From Rhodospirillaceae bacterium (GTDB lineage: Bacteria > Pseudomonadota > Alphaproteobacteria > Rhodospirillales > Rhodospirillaceae): a DNA stretch of 64,000 nucleotides. The DNA is taken from contig JAVJSV010000016.1 of the NCBI GenBank assembly GCA_040219235.1, positions 124,001 through 188,000 of the forward strand, read 5' to 3'. Under the pieces are notes generated by a model that searched no databases, had not been told where the DNA came from, and worked only from the letters and a program-made list of their open reading frames with translations. Shown piece after piece: positions 57,915-64,000 of the stretch (the first letter of the stretch is position 1; each line of letters opens with the position of its first letter). A program made the position numbers and the translations under genes.

Positions 57915-58082
57915 GTGGTCGGTTCTCCGTTCAGCGTACAAACTGATGTTCATCTCATGCCATAAGGCCATATTTTTGAGAGCAGGTCACTTAGGAAAAA
58001 ACACTGTGAAGGTTAGGCGGGGGCCTGTAAACGGTTTAGGGTTTTGGCCGCGAACAGAGGCCCAAAGTCAGAGAGCGCAGAT

Positions 58083-58715
58083 ATGAGTGATAATCCCAAC
58101 TACGTCCCGGCGCCGCCGCTGCCCGATGGCACGCGCAATCAAAATCCGGCAGAGGGCAAACTCAAAGGCACCACCTTGCGCATTAAACGCGCACTGGTGT
58201 TTGTGACCGACCTCAAACGCTCGATCGATTTTTATGAAAATGTGATCGGCCTGGAAGTGTATGCGGTGGACCAGGTGTACAGCCTGGATCAAAGCACCAT
58301 GGGCAACAGGTTGTTTAACACGACCGAGGGCACGCGGCGGCGCATTGCGCAATTGAACACCTCGAACGAGACACGCGGCATTGCCCTGCGCGAAGTGGAT
58401 ACGCCCTTTGAGGTGCCGCAAAACCCGCGCGTGAGTACGGTGCTGTTTGAAGCCAGCGACATACTGGGTATTGGCGAACGTGCGACCGCCTATGGCAGTG
58501 AAGTGATCGGACCGATTTTGGCCCAAAAAGAAGCGACGACAAAAGCAGGGGATGACGGCGAAGTGAAAACGCCGCGCCTGCGCTATATGGAACTAGGTGT
58601 GGTCGACCCCGACGGCCATGTGATCGCGTTTTTTAAATACTATGAAGACAACCCCGAAGACGACGCGGAGTGGGACAAGGCGGCGGAGCGGTACCGGGTG
58701 GAAGTGGAGTTGTAG
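58083..58715 (+). CDS. VOC-family protein
   Basis: A 210-residue protein with a proline-rich lead (about 1-32) and a VOC fold: LRIKRALVFVTDLKRSIDFYENVIGLEVY opens the first module and LRYMELGVVDPDGHVIAFFKYYE closes the second, giving a likely metal-ligand strand. It is the third VOC protein in the window and is not close to the others in sequence. ATG 58083 follows GAGAGCGCAGAT. Function unknown. Confidence 0.8.
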   Translation: MSDNPNYVPAPPLPDGTRNQNPAEGKLKGTTLRIKRALVFVTDLKRSIDFYENVIGLEVYAVDQVYSLDQSTMGNRLFNTTEGTRRRIAQLNTSNETRGIALREVDTPFEVPQNPRVSTVLFEASDILGIGERATAYGSEVIGPILAQKEATTKAGDDGEVKTPRLRYMELGVVDPDGHVIAFFKYYEDNPEDDAEWDKAAERYRVEVEL

Positions 58716-58871
58716 GGGGGAATCCTTTTGGGAAGTGTGGGCGGTGTAATGGAATTATGTCGCGTTCTTGAATAGGTGACAGGCGTCGCTTGGGTGTTTG
58801 CATGAAATTCGTTTTAAATGCTGAAGGCGACCTAAAAGGATAAGTCTATTTAGTGCAATTCAGCTCACTTT

Positions 58872-58899
58872 ATGGTATACGTATTGGTGTATATACCAT
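58872..58899. promoter_or_regulatory. Inverted repeat before the PRTase-NADAR pair
   Basis: ATGGTATA (58872-58879) and TATACCAT (58892-58899) are perfect 8-base arms. A weak promoter can be read just here: TTGGTG at 58884-58889, 17 bases, TATGGT at 58907-58912. The repeat would overlap the -35 box, the usual place for a repressor. Confidence 0.5.
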
Positions 58900-58937
58900 C
58901 CTGAGTTATGGTTTAGGCGAGTAAACTAATTTAAAGT

Positions 58938-59978
58938 TTGGATTTCATATTGTCAGACAGCACATACTCTAAAGCTTGTGAGAATTTATCGAATATAATT
59001 GAAGATTATAGGCAGGATGAATTAGCCACGCTAACGCCTGAGCATGTGGAGCGCTGGGCCAATCAATTCGAGGAAATGGATCGACATCAGATCGTAACAG
59101 AAACCGCTAATATCCTTAATAAGACATACGTAAGTGAGAAAAAAGTCGATGGTTTTCTGAAGAGTGTGCTGAATGATTCAAATTTTACTGCTGGGGATCC
59201 CAAGAAATTTTGGCAGAATGTAGGATTACTTGATATCCAACCTAATAGTCGTAGCCAAAAAGAGTTAAATAGAAAGCTATGCGAGCTTTGCAAACAAGAA
59301 TATGGCGTTGATATTGCTGTTAATTCCTCAAAGAACAATGTTTGGATTTACTTAGACGATGGAATTTTTACAGGCCATCAGATGACGGTCGATTTAAGTA
59401 ATTGGATCGAAGCCAATAACGTTGAAAACGTAGAAATTCGAACTGTGGTTATTGGCGCTCATAAATTTGGAGAATATGAATTAAGTAAACTGGGTATTAA
59501 GGTACAGAAAGAAAGAAGCATAACTGTAAAACCTTGGGCAGTTATTAGACTAGAAAATAGAAAAACTTACCGTGCTAATTCCGACGTTCTCTGGCCGACA
59601 TTTATACCAGATGGTGGTATGGTGGAAGAATGGCTTACCAAAAGAGAAATGAAGCTTGATCATTTCCATAGCCGGAGCGGCGAAAATCTTGGAGATGCTA
59701 ATTTATTTTCAACTTCTTCTGCAAGAGCAAAGCTAGAATATGCATTTATGGAACGCGGTGCATATATTTGTACTTTAGGAGCTTCAAATAATCGAATGAT
59801 GAAACCTTTGGGATATTCAACATTTCGAAGTGTAGGTTTTGGTACACTTTTCTGCACCTACCGCAATTGCCCAAATAACGCCCCCTTAGTTCTTTGGTGG
59901 GGCGATCCAAATGGCAACCAGACGCTTCGTAGATGGTACCCATTAATCCAACGAGCTTCACGTGAGTTTGCAAACTAA
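58938..59978 (+). CDS. Phosphoribosyltransferase-like protein of a conflict-type cassette (PRTase-CE-like)
   Basis: A 346-residue soluble protein. An all-helical N-terminal region (about 8-100) leads into a PRTase core whose PRPP-binding loop is plain: hydrophobic VWIYL, then D140-D141-G-I-F-T-G146. A C-terminal region (about 290-325) has GYSTFRSVGFGTLFCTYRN, CPNNAP and a tryptophan-rich LVLWWGD, which I associate with the conflict-related PRTase-CE group. The start is a non-ATG codon: TTG 58938, or TTG 58950, which has GGAT six bases upstream. DNA is much more AT-rich than the neighbours. The NADAR gene follows 6 bases later. Substrate base unknown. Confidence 0.75.
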   Translation: MDFILSDSTYSKACENLSNIIEDYRQDELATLTPEHVERWANQFEEMDRHQIVTETANILNKTYVSEKKVDGFLKSVLNDSNFTAGDPKKFWQNVGLLDIQPNSRSQKELNRKLCELCKQEYGVDIAVNSSKNNVWIYLDDGIFTGHQMTVDLSNWIEANNVENVEIRTVVIGAHKFGEYELSKLGIKVQKERSITVKPWAVIRLENRKTYRANSDVLWPTFIPDGGMVEEWLTKREMKLDHFHSRSGENLGDANLFSTSSARAKLEYAFMERGAYICTLGASNNRMMKPLGYSTFRSVGFGTLFCTYRNCPNNAPLVLWWGDPNGNQTLRRWYPLIQRASREFAN

Positions 59979-59984
59979 CACACT

Positions 59985-60686
59985 ATGGAACATGTAATTT
60001 TAAATTCCGATGCTAAATCAAAGCCTAAACTTGAAGAACGTGTTTACGAACGTAAGAAGTCTGTAATTTTTAAGAAAACGCGTGAAAAATGGGGTGGCTT
60101 ATCGAATATGGCTGCTGGTTATCCTATAGAAATTTCAGGTATCAGACTGCGGACATCTGAGGCGTTGTATCAATCTTGTAGGTATCCCCACCTTCCAGAG
60201 GTTCAGGGAAGTATAATATCTGAAAAAAGCCCAATGACGGCCAAAATGAGAGGCAAGCCGTTTCGTGATTCAACCAGACCAAAATGGGACCAGATAAGAA
60301 TTCCAATTATGAAATGGTGCTTAAAGGTTAAGCTAGTTCAAAATTGGGATAAATTTGGAAACTTGCTATTAGAAACTGGCGATAGTCCGATCGTAGAAGA
60401 GTCTAATAAAGACCCATTTTGGAGTGCAAGACCGGAGAGCGCTGAAATACTAAAGGGAACAAATGCTCTTGGGCGCTTATTGATGGAGTTGAGACAACAA
60501 CTTATTGAAACTCCTAACTCTCTTGAGATGGTTGAACCTCTGCCGCTTGAAAAATTTTTACTATTAAATAAACCAATTGAGACTATTTATCGTGATTCAA
60601 ATAATTATGCTTTAGATCACGATAAAACGGAGTCTAATTTGGAAAGTGAGACAGAATCTAAAAGAAATATGGCATTTGGATTTTAA
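59985..60686 (+). CDS. NADAR (YbiA/DUF1768) protein
   Basis: A 233-residue protein with a NADAR domain (about 26-172). Conserved blocks: WGGLSNMAAGYPIEI (36-50), TSEALYQSCRYP (57-68), MTAKMRGKPF (84-93), DPFWSARP (143-150) and GTNALGRLLMELR (158-170), which match the family's SNF, SExxYQ, AKxxG, W and GxNxLGxxLMxxR positions. NADAR enzymes cleave N-glycosidic bonds, such as ADP-ribose on guanine or riboflavin intermediates. A 60-residue polar tail follows. AT-rich and coupled to the PRTase-like gene. No other domain is fused. Confidence 0.88.
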   Translation: MEHVILNSDAKSKPKLEERVYERKKSVIFKKTREKWGGLSNMAAGYPIEISGIRLRTSEALYQSCRYPHLPEVQGSIISEKSPMTAKMRGKPFRDSTRPKWDQIRIPIMKWCLKVKLVQNWDKFGNLLLETGDSPIVEESNKDPFWSARPESAEILKGTNALGRLLMELRQQLIETPNSLEMVEPLPLEKFLLLNKPIETIYRDSNNYALDHDKTESNLESETESKRNMAFGF

Positions 60687-60691
60687 CTAGC

Positions 60692-60850
60692 TCACTTCCC
60701 CAAATGAAGCCAAGAACCCTTGTCGGCCAGTGCGTCCGCGTCGTCGATCTGGGATTCCTCGCCGAAGGCGTCTAGCAAGATGCGATGGATGTGAGGAAGG
60801 TCCGTCTGTTCGAACGGACGAATTGCCAGTCGGTCTGTTGTCAGGATCAT
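60692..60850 (-). pseudogene. Truncated GNAT acetyltransferase, N-terminal fragment
   Basis: A 52-codon frame starts with ATG 60850. It reads MILTTDRLAIRPFEQTDLPHI, the classic first strand and helix of GNAT acetyltransferases, then stops after GSWLHLGK. A complete enzyme needs about 150-180 residues. The last residues (LGK) and the DNA CTTCCCCAAAT look like the end of uvrA, so the break probably lies at a junction. GC-rich, unlike the cassette beside it. Confidence 0.65.
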
Positions 60851-60878
60851 TGCTCGTGCCGGACCTCTCTCTGACGTG

Positions 60879-60955
60879 TCACTTCCCCGGCACGCCCTTC
60901 AAATACTGCCCCGTGTAACTTGCTTTGATTTGTGCGATCTCTTCTGGGATGAGGA
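60879..60955 (-). pseudogene. Diverged remnant of the uvrA 3' end
   Basis: On the minus strand this reads [18 protein letters not shown] then VPGK and stop. The intact uvrA ends [23 protein letters not shown] and stop at 62151. The two DNA segments match over about 70 bases with several differences, so this is an old or foreign copy, not a recent duplication. Nothing UvrA-like continues beyond about 60955. Confidence 0.8.
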
Positions 60956-61015
60956 TGGCGCGCTTGCTTTTTTTCGTTCGGATCAGTCACGCCTCAAAAA
61001 AGTGACAGAGATTAT

Positions 61016-61044
61016 GGATTCGCCGGTCAAGCCGGCGAATGACA
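61016..61044. repeat. 29-base palindromic repeat, copy 1
   Basis: Identical to copy 2 at 62091-62119. Nine-base arms ATTCGCCGG and CCGGCGAAT surround TCAAG, preceded by GG and followed by GACA. This is the form of dispersed REP-type elements found in many proteobacteria. Confidence 0.85.
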
Positions 61045-61116
61045 AAAATAATGCATGAGATATTATGACATAAGAAATAGGGTATGACCCGCAGCGTTGC
61101 GAAACGGTTATCGTTT

Positions 61117-61455
61117 TTACGCCGCACTTTTAACAGGGCGGGCGCGCTCGATCCGTTTGCGCCGCTCCGGTGTGTTTAAGGCTTTCCAGAGGTCTGTTCG
61201 GGTTTGAGAATTCAGCCAGAATACGGGCGTGTTACCAAACACGCGCGCGAGCATCAGGGCTGTATCGGCGGTTACGGCGCGGCGGTCGTTGCACAGTTCA
61301 TTGACCAATCGTCGCTCGACGCCGCTCGATATTCATGGGGTGGCCTCGGCCAGGGCTGTCTGAGTCAGGGCCGTCTGAGTCAAGCCCAGCGGTTTGATAA
61401 ACTCTTCGCGCAGCATTTCACCGGGCGTTGCGCGCCTGCGTTGTGTTGTTCGCAT
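61117..61455 (-). pseudogene. higA: Broken higA-type antitoxin gene
   Basis: The frame starts at ATG 61455 (MRTTQRRRATPGEMLREEF), the usual start of HigA/VapI antitoxins, but meets TGA at 61333-61335 after 40 residues. The remaining part continues in the same frame downstream (LVNELCNDRRAVTADTALMLARVFGNTPVFWLNSQTRTDLWKAL). Between them another frame reads MNIERRR, which fits the family, so small insertions/deletions broke the helix-turn-helix. TQTAL is also duplicated in tandem (15 bases). No higB toxin gene is adjacent. Confidence 0.75.
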
Positions 61456-61465
61456 CAGTCACACC

Positions 61466-61720
61466 TCAGAGATTAGCGGACACTGCTTTCTCCAGAACTT
61501 CTCTGATAAGGCGTTGATACGGAATGCCGCGTGCGGCAGCTTTCGCTTTAACCGCCTTGAGGAGCGAGTCCGGCAGCCGCATGTTGACGCGTGCGGCCTT
61601 GGTTTCAAACTCGAAACGCATGGGCGTCGCGCCGGACAGGTCGTACTCTGACAGATCGGCTTTATCGACGAAGTCTTCTGCGGCCTTGTCGGTCTTAAAG
61701 GTTGGAATTTTCTTTTTCAT
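61466..61720 (-). CDS. brnA: BrnA-type antitoxin
   Basis: An 84-residue antitoxin: N-terminal toxin-binding part (FKTDKAAEDFVDKADLSEYDLSGATPMRF) and a ribbon-helix-helix DNA-binding end (RVNMRLPDSLLKAVKAKAAARGIPYQRLIREVLEKAV). It neutralises BrnT and should repress the shared promoter. It overlaps the brnT end by 26 bases. Confidence 0.88.
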   Translation of the reverse strand: MKKKIPTFKTDKAAEDFVDKADLSEYDLSGATPMRFEFETKAARVNMRLPDSLLKAVKAKAAARGIPYQRLIREVLEKAVSANL

Positions 61721-62015
61721 AACGGTGAATTTCTTTCCGGTGCATGTAGCGGGCAGAGATGGGGCGAATGTAAGTTTGTCCGTTGCGGTTCCTCAACGTG
61801 AAAACAACGAAGACATAGCGATTGGCCACGGCCGGCTGAATATTGGTTTTACCAATGGCGCGGAACCGCTGCTCGCCAATCGAATGATCGGGGTCCGGCA
61901 GAACCATGACCGTTCCATGAAACACGCTTTCAATCTCTTCTAGCGTTAGCCCGTGTTTGCGGCATTTTTCGCGGTTGGCATCGTCCCACTCAAAGCCGGT
62001 CACGGGGCTTGTCAT
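61695..62015 (-). CDS. brnT: BrnT-type ribonuclease toxin
   Basis: A 106-residue toxin of the BrnT family, a RelE-like-fold RNase. It has FEWDDANREKCRKHGLTLEEIESVF at the start and RFRAIGK, YVFVVFTLRN, IRPISARYMHRKE in order, the strands with the expected basic and arginine residues. ATG 62015 follows GGGGAT; the longer frame from 62105 runs through the promoter. First gene of the toxin-antitoxin operon. Confidence 0.88.
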   Translation of the reverse strand: MTSPVTGFEWDDANREKCRKHGLTLEEIESVFHGTVMVLPDPDHSIGEQRFRAIGKTNIQPAVANRYVFVVFTLRNRNGQTYIRPISARYMHRKEIHRYEKENSNL

Positions 62016-62037
62016 ATCCCCTGTCTCACAAAACCAG

Positions 62038-62065
62038 TATGTATAAATGTATGTACATTTGTCAA
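62038..62065 (-). promoter_or_regulatory. Promoter of the brnTA operon
   Basis: On the minus strand: TTGACA (62065-62060), 16 bases, TACATA (62043-62038), about 22 bases before the toxin start. The spacer repeats ATGTA/TACAT elements that could bind the antitoxin. Confidence 0.55.
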
Positions 62066-62090
62066 CATTATTGGTGTGCGTATTGTCCCT

Positions 62091-62119
62091 GGATTCGCCG
62101 GTCAAGCCGGCGAATGACA
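62091..62119. repeat. 29-base palindromic repeat, copy 2
   Basis: Identical to copy 1 at 61016-61044 and in the same orientation. It lies 32 bases after the uvrA stop and could also act as its terminator-like hairpin. The two copies enclose the brnTA/higA segment. Confidence 0.85.
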
Positions 62120-62150
62120 GGGGTGGGAGATGGCTTGGCGCGTTCGTATG

Positions 62151-64000
62151 TTACCGCTTCCCCAAATACCCTTTGAGATACTGCCCCGTATAACTCGCTT
62201 TGATTTTGGCAATCTCTTCCGGTGTACCGGTGCCGACAATGTGGCCGCCGCCGGCGCCGCCTTCGGGGCCGATGTCGATAAGGTGGTCGGCGGTTTTGAT
62301 GACCTCTAAATTATGCTCAATCACGATGACCGTGTTGCCCTGATCGACCAGGTGATGCAGCACTTCTAATAACTTGCGCACGTCTTCAAAGTGCAGGCCG
62401 GTGGTCGGCTCGTCGAGGATATAGAGCGTGCGCCCGGTGGCGCGCTTGGAGAGTTCTTTCGCCAGCTTGACGCGCTGCGCTTCGCCGCCGGAGAGGGTGG
62501 TGGCCTGCTGGCCGAGGCGGATGTAATCGAGCCCGACCTGTTGCAGCAGCACCATTTTATCGCGGATGGCAGGAACGGCCTTGAAGAAGGTCACGGCTTC
62601 CTCGACGGTCATGTCCAGAATGTCGGCGATGGATTTACCTTTGAACTTCACGTCGAGGGTTTCGCGGTTGTAGCGCTGGCCGTTGCAGACATCGCAGGTG
62701 ACATAAACATCGGGCAGGAAGTGCATTTCGATTTTGATCAGGCCGTCGCCCTGGCAGGCTTCACACCTGCCGCCCTTGACGTTGAAGGAAAAACGCCCCG
62801 GCTTGTAGCCGCGGGCCTTGGCTTCGGGCAGTTCGGCAAACCAATCGCGGATCGGCGTGAACGCCTGGGTGTAGGTGGCGGGGTTGGAGCGCGGGGTGCG
62901 GCCAATGGGGCTTTGATCAATGTCGACGATTTTGTCGATATAGGTGAGACCGTCGATCTTTTTGTGGGGGCCGGGCAGATCGCGTGCGCCATGCAGGGTT
63001 TTGGCCAGCGCTTTATAGAGAGTCTCCAGCACCAGTGACGACTTGCCGCCACCGGACACGCCGGTGACGCAGGTGAAGGTGCCGAGCGGGAAGCTGGCAT
63101 CGACCTTTTGCAGGTTGTTGGTTTCCGCACCGATGACCTTGATGGCCTTGCCATTGCCGGTGCGGCGCTGTTTGGGCACGTCGATCTTTTTGACGCCGGT
63201 GAGATAGGCGGCGGTGAGGGAGTCCTTATTCATCATCACCTGGGACGGCGTGCCCTGGGCGACCACATGGCCGCCGTGGACGCCCGCGCCCGGACCCATA
63301 TCAATCAGGTGATCGGCGGTGCGGATGGCGTCTTCATCATGCTCGACCACAATGACGGTGTTGCCGATGTCGCGCAATCGACGCAGGGTTTGCAGCAGGC
63401 GTTCGTTGTCGCGCTGGTGCAGGCCGATGGACGGTTCATCGAGAACGTACAACACGCCGGTGAGGCCGGAACCGATTTGCGAGGCGAGGCGGATGCGCTG
63501 GCTTTCGCCGCCGGACAAGGTGCCGGAGTTGCGCGCGAGGGTGAGGTATTCCAGGCCGACGTTGTTGAGGAAGCCGAGGCGTTCGTCGATCTCGCGCAGG
63601 ATGCGGCGGGCGATTTCGGTGTCTTTGGCGGAGAGTTTTGTCTCCAGCGCCTGGAACCAGGTGTGGGCGTCGGAGATGGACAGCTCGGACACTTCGCTGA
63701 CGTGCTTGCCATCAATTTTGACCGCCAGGGCTTCGGGCTTGAGACGGTGGCCGTCGCAGGCTTCGCACTTCTGGCTGGTTTGATACTTGGACAGTTCTTC
63801 GCGGATCCAGGCGGAATCGGTCTCGCGCCAGCGGCGGGCGAGGTTGTTGATGACGCCTTCAAAGGGTTTGCGGGTTTCATACTTGCGGTTGCCATCGTCG
63901 AACTTAATCAGGATGGGCTCGTCGCCGCTGCCGAAGAAGATAGCCTGCTGTACTTTCTTGGGCAGTTTGCTCCATGGGGTGTCAACATTGGCACCGTTGA
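62151..64000 (-). CDS. uvrA: Excinuclease ABC subunit A, C-terminal two thirds (partial)
   Basis: About 615 C-terminal residues of UvrA, damage sensor of nucleotide excision repair; the frame is open to the right edge and the start is beyond the window. Visible in order: first zinc-module cysteines ([15 protein letters not shown]), signature [12 protein letters not shown] with Walker [14 protein letters not shown], second Walker [16 protein letters not shown], second zinc finger ([13 protein letters not shown] and [12 protein letters not shown]), second signature [12 protein letters not shown] and [12 protein letters not shown]. The usual fourth-position serine-type Walker A is intact. Its 3' end lies next to the accessory island, and a remnant of a second 3' end lies at 60879. 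Confidence 0.97.

Follow-up and report, generated by a model that had tools for sequence, protein, structure and literature searches.

A divergent stand-alone member of the anti-phage system DS-32 in a Rhodospirillaceae genome, and relatives wired to restriction-modification and Hma-type operons

A 64,000-nucleotide stretch of a Rhodospirillaceae bacterium genome (GenBank assembly GCA_040219235.1, contig JAVJSV010000016.1, positions 124,001 to 188,000; hereafter, the window) carries a phosphoribosyltransferase (PRTase) gene followed by a NADAR gene, and by profile similarity this pair is a stand-alone, divergent new member of the known two-gene anti-phage system DS-32. The window PRTase scored 342.9 bits against NCBIfam NF053875, with an equivalog cut-off of 250, and the NADAR protein scored 271 bits against NF053876 (equivalog cut-off, 240). 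A first-pass annotation, made from the window's letters alone, had proposed the two genes as a candidate anti-phage pair; the core of that idea holds, although with both cut-offs passed the candidate is not a fresh one. The apparently new part is a form of the system, found among relatives, that is wired into restriction-modification (R-M) or Hma-type operons; the pair itself was already known as DS-32. The two window genes are as follows.

58938..59978, forward strand: PRTase-CE gene, first component of DS-32 (DS32_1_antiphage), 346 amino acids, TTG start
59985..60686, forward strand: YbiA-type NADAR gene, second component of DS-32 (DS32_2_antiphage), 233 amino acids, ATG start

The DS-32 pair and its relatives

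The "DS" system names stem from DefensePredictor (PMC13092281), in which 42 of 94 cloned units were protective in Escherichia coli MG1655 against a panel of 24 phages. The available main text of that study mentions PRTase and NADAR domains and does not print the name DS-32, which we link to it through the name given by NCBI and the shared DS prefix. In RefSeq, the proteins of the E. coli pair are called "phosphoribosyltransferase-like anti-phage protein" and "NADAR family anti-phage protein." Protein order and operon form are the same as in the window, at 32% identity for the PRTase and 44% for NADAR. The E. coli pair sits in a lambdoid prophage, directly behind replication gene P (seen in one genome), whereas the window copy occupies a chromosomal spot and its activity is predicted. 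DNA matches to the E. coli pair were present in 63 of 5,426 complete E. coli genomes, and 43 of the 63 covered at least 80% of the query. In NZ_CP122823.1 (3850784-3853617), the annotation indicates that the PRTase gene has apparently been split by an ISKpn26-type transposase gene. Neither the window PRTase nor an E. coli DS-32 PRTase had a match among 50,697 phage records, and a single-sequence scan of viral contigs returned no DS-32 PRTase; an alignment scan of viral contigs returned 33 DS-32 PRTase loci.

We assembled 120 PRTase loci. The window supplied one, class genomes 2, plasmid records 3, and E. coli 1; viral contigs gave 33, and from genome contigs we took the best 80 of 179. A duplicate of the window (L006) and two weak loci with no PRTase above 50 bits and no NADAR (L004 and L005) were left out before counting. 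Since these loci include near-copies, chiefly from E. coli prophages, we also used a set of 80 that remained at 85% identity and a length of at least 250 amino acids. NADAR is the next gene downstream, on the same strand, in 119 of the 120 loci, and the exception (L072) ends 93 nucleotides past the PRTase. This pairing is far beyond chance, and the first-pass annotation, which rare neighborhood of the two genes elsewhere would have refuted, is upheld by a near-obligate association. The genes mostly overlap or lie a few bases apart, an estimate that depends on the start codon picked. Of 34 lower-scoring NADARs, 27 were fetched, and none of the 27 had a PRTase within flanks of about 1.5 kb. Across 398 genomes from the phylum, three had a NADAR above the DS-32 cut-off, all three with the PRTase, and 3 of 385 genomes of the class were over the cut-off; both counts include the window's own genome. 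The 80 loci from genome contigs belong to 10 named phyla, several of them represented solely by metagenome bins. Pairwise distances of PRTase and NADAR were correlated (r=0.80, 80 pairs), a value reached by none of 1,000 shuffles; because linked genes share descent, this shows joint transfer and not contact.

The description of the cassette as two open reading frames (ORFs) 6 bases apart, the first PRTase-like and the second NADAR, was borne out by the ORFs and by Pfam. The PRTase matched PRTase-CE (PF24390) with an E value of 4.1e-48, NADAR matched PF08719 with an E value of 1.7e-22 (80.9 bits; cut-off, 35.1), and 6 bases separate the PRTase stop from the NADAR start. The PRTase start is uncertain, as TTG at 58950, with GGA in front, fits too. 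Structure prediction for the PRTase (pLDDT, 92.5) gave a type I PRTase fold that matches uracil PRTase and its kin, among chains from the VIA list, which covers only Foldseek-ranked chains, and it supports the fold assigned earlier. A sequence search of solved structures gave nothing strong; the sole on-topic weak match was to PyrR 4p80 (E value, 0.82), across the loop that binds phosphoribosyl pyrophosphate (PRPP). This loop is intact (Y138-L-D-D-G-I-F-T-G146), with LDDGIFTG at residues 139 to 146 exactly as first annotated. Among the 80 PRTases, D140, F144, and G146 are kept in all and D141 in 79, while each position of a C-terminal motif, R309-N-C-P-N-N314, is kept in at least 78. Phe at position 144 is unusual against the PRPP-loop consensus.

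Six NADAR residues (E59, K87, R98, K116, N160, and R170) are invariant in 80 of 80 homologues. Position 168, a Glu in the window, is Glu in 72 of the 80, Asp in 5, Leu in 2, and Gln in 1, and both this position and E59 align with Glu residues of YbiA. Since active-site residues are kept in both proteins, both enzymes look active in most members. Position 66 sets the group apart: Arg occupies it in 79 of 80 DS-32 NADARs versus 3 of 27 other NADARs, 20 of which have Lys. By alignment and equal spacing, we take Arg66 to be the counterpart of K95, the phosphate-binding Lys of C7 NADAR, so DS-32 NADARs look to have a group-specific change at the phosphate site.

The retron model PRTase_III-A of PADLOC aligned with residues 36 to 336 of the E. 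coli-type DS-32 PRTase of L107 (7.4e-10) and with residues 36 to 335 of the PRTase of locus L031 (1.2e-11). Among 10 loci found with this model, 6 had an RT-like (reverse transcriptase) Y-x-D-D in a neighboring ORF, and 3 of these 6 loci had a CPNN...LW motif at the PRTase C terminus. Type III-A retrons share with DS-32 a PRTase with a PRPP-type loop and, in those three loci, CPNN...LW. Their PRTase lies beside a reverse transcriptase, whereas that of the window lies beside NADAR, reverse transcriptase having been looked for at the window only. We rejected the window pair as a type III-A retron for lack of a reverse transcriptase, as the listed ORFs in 58716-62150 besides the pair are at most 139 amino acids long, a length insufficient for such an enzyme.

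NADAR joined to specificity subunits and methylases

In 35 of the 120 loci (19 of the 80 nonredundant loci), NADAR forms the N-terminal part of HsdS, the specificity subunit of a type I R-M system. A further fusion, to a DUF1156 methylase of Hma type, occurs in 6 of the 120 loci and likewise in 6 of the 80, so that NADAR is fused to one or the other in 41 of 120 loci, with 79 lacking such a fusion. The cassette had been described as a self-contained two-gene system, which fits the window copy and fails for these 41 loci. The HsdS assignment is based on the Pfam family Methylase_S in L014, L015, and L089 and on similarity clusters for the remainder; PADLOC identified the L014 fusion as Specificity_I (E value, 8.8e-54). 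The fused operons have the order hsdM, PRTase, NADAR::hsdS, hsdR, and of the 35 loci, 31 have hsdM upstream and 30 have hsdR downstream, always on the same strand and often abutting. Six of the 35 loci are without hsdM, hsdR, or both; five of these have short flanks, while L015 is without both despite room. A gene of GmrSD type, a type IV restriction family, stands between hsdM and the PRTase in 11 of 35 loci (L002, L014, L020, L033, L035, L046, L082, L085, L089, L095, and L098) and ahead of hsdM in 4 of 35 (L048, L051, L068, and L084). All six DUF1156 loci have a helicase gene upstream and a DUF499 gene downstream. L031, the one of the six put to PADLOC, matched HmaB in its methylase (2.4e-100) and HmaA in the upstream helicase (3.8e-172), and the DUF1156 fusion was checked against Pfam in four proteins. 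The labels HsdM, HsdR, GmrSD, HmaA, and DUF499 stand for similarity clusters, with one or two members of each checked against Pfam or PADLOC. L073 was counted as stand-alone; its NADAR frame reaches the contig end, and a gene of the HmaA family lies upstream.

NADAR ORFs of at least 600 amino acids were found in 40 of 119 DS-32 loci versus 0 of 27 lower-scoring NADAR loci. On a quick tree of the 80 PRTases, the R-M label changes 7 times, with at least 5 changes forced by starred branches, and therefore the pair seems to enter or leave R-M operons repeatedly. In the literature searched, which excludes most subscription papers and preprints, we found no description of NADAR fused to HsdS or to an Hma methylase.

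Other neighborhoods were also seen. In L081 (6466-9940), a radical-SAM gene with a helix-hairpin-helix motif directly precedes the PRTase and a NADAR::helix-hairpin-helix protein, and three further NADARs with extensions gave no Pfam match beyond NADAR itself. In L037 (6880-7902), a RES-domain gene lies 72 nucleotides before the PRTase. Two more conserved genes, with no Pfam family when checked on L037, stand ahead of the RES-domain gene, and the same gene cluster occurs in L042 and L044.

The chromosomal spot of the window pair

The two genes make up the window's most AT-rich 1.75 kb, with a GC fraction of 0.385 versus a window mean of 0.522. Among 623 sliding windows of 1,749 nucleotides, GC fell below 0.45 only in those starting at 58201 to 59601, all of which overlap the pair. 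The first-pass annotation of an AT-rich pair in a GC-rich chromosome is therefore correct, with GC-rich standing for about 52% in this case. Among loci with enough flank, 57 of 64 stand-alone pairs are AT-richer than their surroundings (median, -0.07), as are 23 of 32 R-M-wired pairs (median, -0.006). The remaining features of the spot are listed here.

58716..58937, forward strand: AT-rich upstream region (GC 0.41), expected promoter site
58044..58715, forward strand: glyoxalase-fold gene, left edge of the variable spot, kept as a close copy in 2 of 6 same-genus genomes searched
62151..64000, reverse strand: 3' part of uvrA, open at the window end, bounding the variable spot on the right and retained in both genomes that keep the glyoxalase-fold gene

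In both of those genomes, the glyoxalase-fold gene is followed by uvrA and the pair is missing between them. One (G746; L182, 6024-6873) has about 0.9 kb between the flanking genes, with short ORFs only, while in the other (G744; L181, 5169-8428) about 3.3 kb holds different genes, among them a DUF488 gene and two unassigned ones that look like another defense-type cassette. Since the flanks are kept without the pair, positions 58716 to 62150 of the window form a variable spot, and the pair is not fixed in position in relatives, in keeping with its first description. The DS-32 pair probably reached this genome by transfer. Promoter and terminator scans gave no excess, including in the upstream region 58716-58937, and no tRNA was found within the window.

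Toxin-antitoxin genes had been placed beside the pair, and Pfam agrees, with a CopG-type antitoxin gene and a BrnT ribonuclease toxin gene at 61466-62105 on the reverse strand. Gene remnants had been placed there as well; three short reverse-strand pieces (60692-60850, 61117-61308, and 61333-61455) do resemble remnants, although none has a Pfam match. The latter two together look like a broken HigA-type antitoxin gene. The first, a 52-amino-acid ORF that ends at the edge of the DS-32 pair, presumably resembles the start of a GNAT acetyltransferase; it had no match in Pfam or in the 20 relatives searched. A 44-nucleotide stretch of the uvrA 3' end is doubled (60882-60925 and 62157-62200; 75% identity, 1,275 nucleotides apart), and a palindromic repeat with a 30-nucleotide perfect copy (61015-61044 and 62090-62119) lies near both uvrA-end copies. 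These repeats may be a clue to how the toxin-antitoxin segment came to be duplicated or inserted.

Possible modes of action

The pair is near-obligate, its first protein has a predicted PRTase fold, both active sites are intact as judged from conserved residues, and NADAR is repeatedly fused to subunits that read DNA. On balance, we think it probable that the PRTase is a PRPP-using effector, that NADAR is a ribosyl hydrolase acting as its control or eraser, and that the two genes are linked to DNA surveillance. An effector role has been proposed for the PRTases of type III-A retrons, and the DS-32 PRTase would have such a role too; PRTase and winged-helix genes have been described as the effector genes typical of type III-A1 retrons (PMC12548924). 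Once triggered, the DS-32 PRTase would draw on PRPP and either modify or consume some essential nucleic acid or nucleotide, which would stop phage growth. In the uninfected cell, NADAR, as an N-ribosyl hydrolase, would bind the PRTase, reverse its product, or both. The trigger would be an event on DNA, with the HsdS or methylase part providing DNA contact in the R-M and Hma forms, and NADAR itself sensing the change in the stand-alone form of the window.

This arrangement can be set beside several named systems. The nearest design is PrrC, whose gene lies inside the EcoprrI type IC operon and whose product is held within the R-M complex until T4 infection releases it (PMC3874165). There, a latent anticodon nuclease gene is housed in an hsd operon, as is the PRTase gene in 35 of 120 DS-32 loci. 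The DS-32 effector would differ in being a PRTase, the link in being a covalent NADAR::HsdS fusion, and the window copy in having no hsd genes. DarTG1 (DarT-NADAR) and YarT-YbiA likewise place a transferase next to a NADAR. Their toxin is an NAD+-using ADP-ribosyltransferase, whereas the DS-32 partner is, by profile and fold, a PRPP-type PRTase, and the C7-type NADARs linked to DarT1 have the phosphate-binding Lys where DS-32 NADARs have Arg66. The DprA-PRTase pair of P2-like phages, which protects against T7 and lambda (PMC9122126), resembles DS-32 by description in joining a PRTase to a presumed DNA sensor; the partner is DprA there and NADAR in DS-32.

Several points weigh against a PRTase effector under NADAR control. 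PRTase toxicity, NADAR restraint, trigger, and product are all putative. Since hsdR is kept in most R-M-wired loci, the pair is not the sole effector there, and since position 168 of NADAR is nonacidic in 3 of 80 proteins, catalysis is perhaps not needed everywhere. The likeness to retron PRTases is limited: PRTase_III-A matches the window PRTase at its C-terminal end only (9.3e-6), and hhalign comparisons of DS-32 with retron PRTase profiles were weak (probabilities of 5.6% and 62%). Furthermore, the branch that carries the window pair in the quick-method PRTase tree of 80 sequences is long, the distant, below-cut-off PRTase-like protein of L004 has no NADAR in its fetched flanks, and the genome relatives covered are the best 80 of 179.

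A tentative proposal, which is a specific form of the effector-and-eraser reading, is a PRPP-based write/erase pair parallel to DarTG, in which the PRTase would put a 5-phosphoribosyl group on a nucleic-acid base and the NADAR N-glycosidase would clear that group from host DNA. Riboflavin intermediates of the kind cleaved by YbiA are phosphoribosyl-amines. NADARs remove ADP-ribose from guanine (PMC11125620, PMC11543638) and YbiA cuts the N-glycosidic bond of riboflavin intermediates (PMC11543638), and it is because NADARs cut N-ribosyl bonds of such a kind that the proposal is attractive. It is also consistent with the retention of both active sites, with the 41 of 120 loci in which NADAR is tethered to HsdS or a methylase, and with Arg in place of the phosphate-binding Lys (79 of 80 versus 3 of 27), which fits an altered, phosphoribosyl substrate. 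A Lys-to-Arg change in C7 NADAR, however, kept hydrolysis in vitro and lost antitoxin function (PMC11543638). The base or nucleic-acid substrate of the DS-32 PRTase is moreover putative, and no PRTase is known to act on polymer DNA. More doubtful still is the further idea of a new kind of DNA-mark immunity, in which such a phosphoribosyl mark, written by the PRPP enzyme, would be erased from self DNA by a sequence-guided NADAR::HsdS or NADAR::HmaB.

We consider it unlikely that NADAR instead strips ribosyl-type marks off phage DNA for HsdR or host nucleases to cut, with the PRTase regulating or supplying this step. The fusion of NADAR to the specificity subunit with hsdR kept in 30 of 35 loci would suit such counter-modification, and an E. 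coli pair in a lambdoid prophage could act on competing phages. However, 79 of 120 loci have no such fusion, the window copy adjoins no nuclease gene of R-M type, and the PRTase would be left without an evident role although its active site is nearly invariant. Equally improbable to us is that the pair would produce and degrade a soluble nucleotide signal or drain PRPP or NAD+. PRTases use PRPP, the fold of this one resembles enzymes acting on free bases, and a NADAR role in processing soluble ADP-ribose signals has been proposed (PMC9503650); yet no receptor-like family was seen among the identified neighbor clusters, most small clusters being unannotated, and the HsdS and methylase fusions point to DNA rather than to a diffusible signal. 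A housekeeping role in controlling riboflavin damage or salvaging bases, which the NADAR score for the riboflavin-intermediate N-glycosidase model TIGR02464 might suggest (68.5 bits, just below the cut-off of 73.7), we reject as highly improbable on distribution: the pair is patchy (3 of 385 class and 3 of 398 phylum genomes over the cut-off), forms an AT-rich island in a variable spot, occurs in prophage, R-M, and Hma-type loci, and belongs to a family that NCBI names anti-phage.

PRTases recur as defense effectors, in type III-A retrons, in DprA-PRTase, and in DS-32. In DS-32, the NADAR partner and its fusions (41 of 120 loci) leave a narrower question, one of DNA surveillance together with a ribosyl-bond hydrolase. 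The R-M- and Hma-wired relatives provide a concrete context in which this poorly understood class of PRTase effectors can be tested. If the mark reading is true, type I R-M and Hma systems would carry a second, ribosyl-based test of self and non-self, and the window pair would be its minimal stand-alone form.
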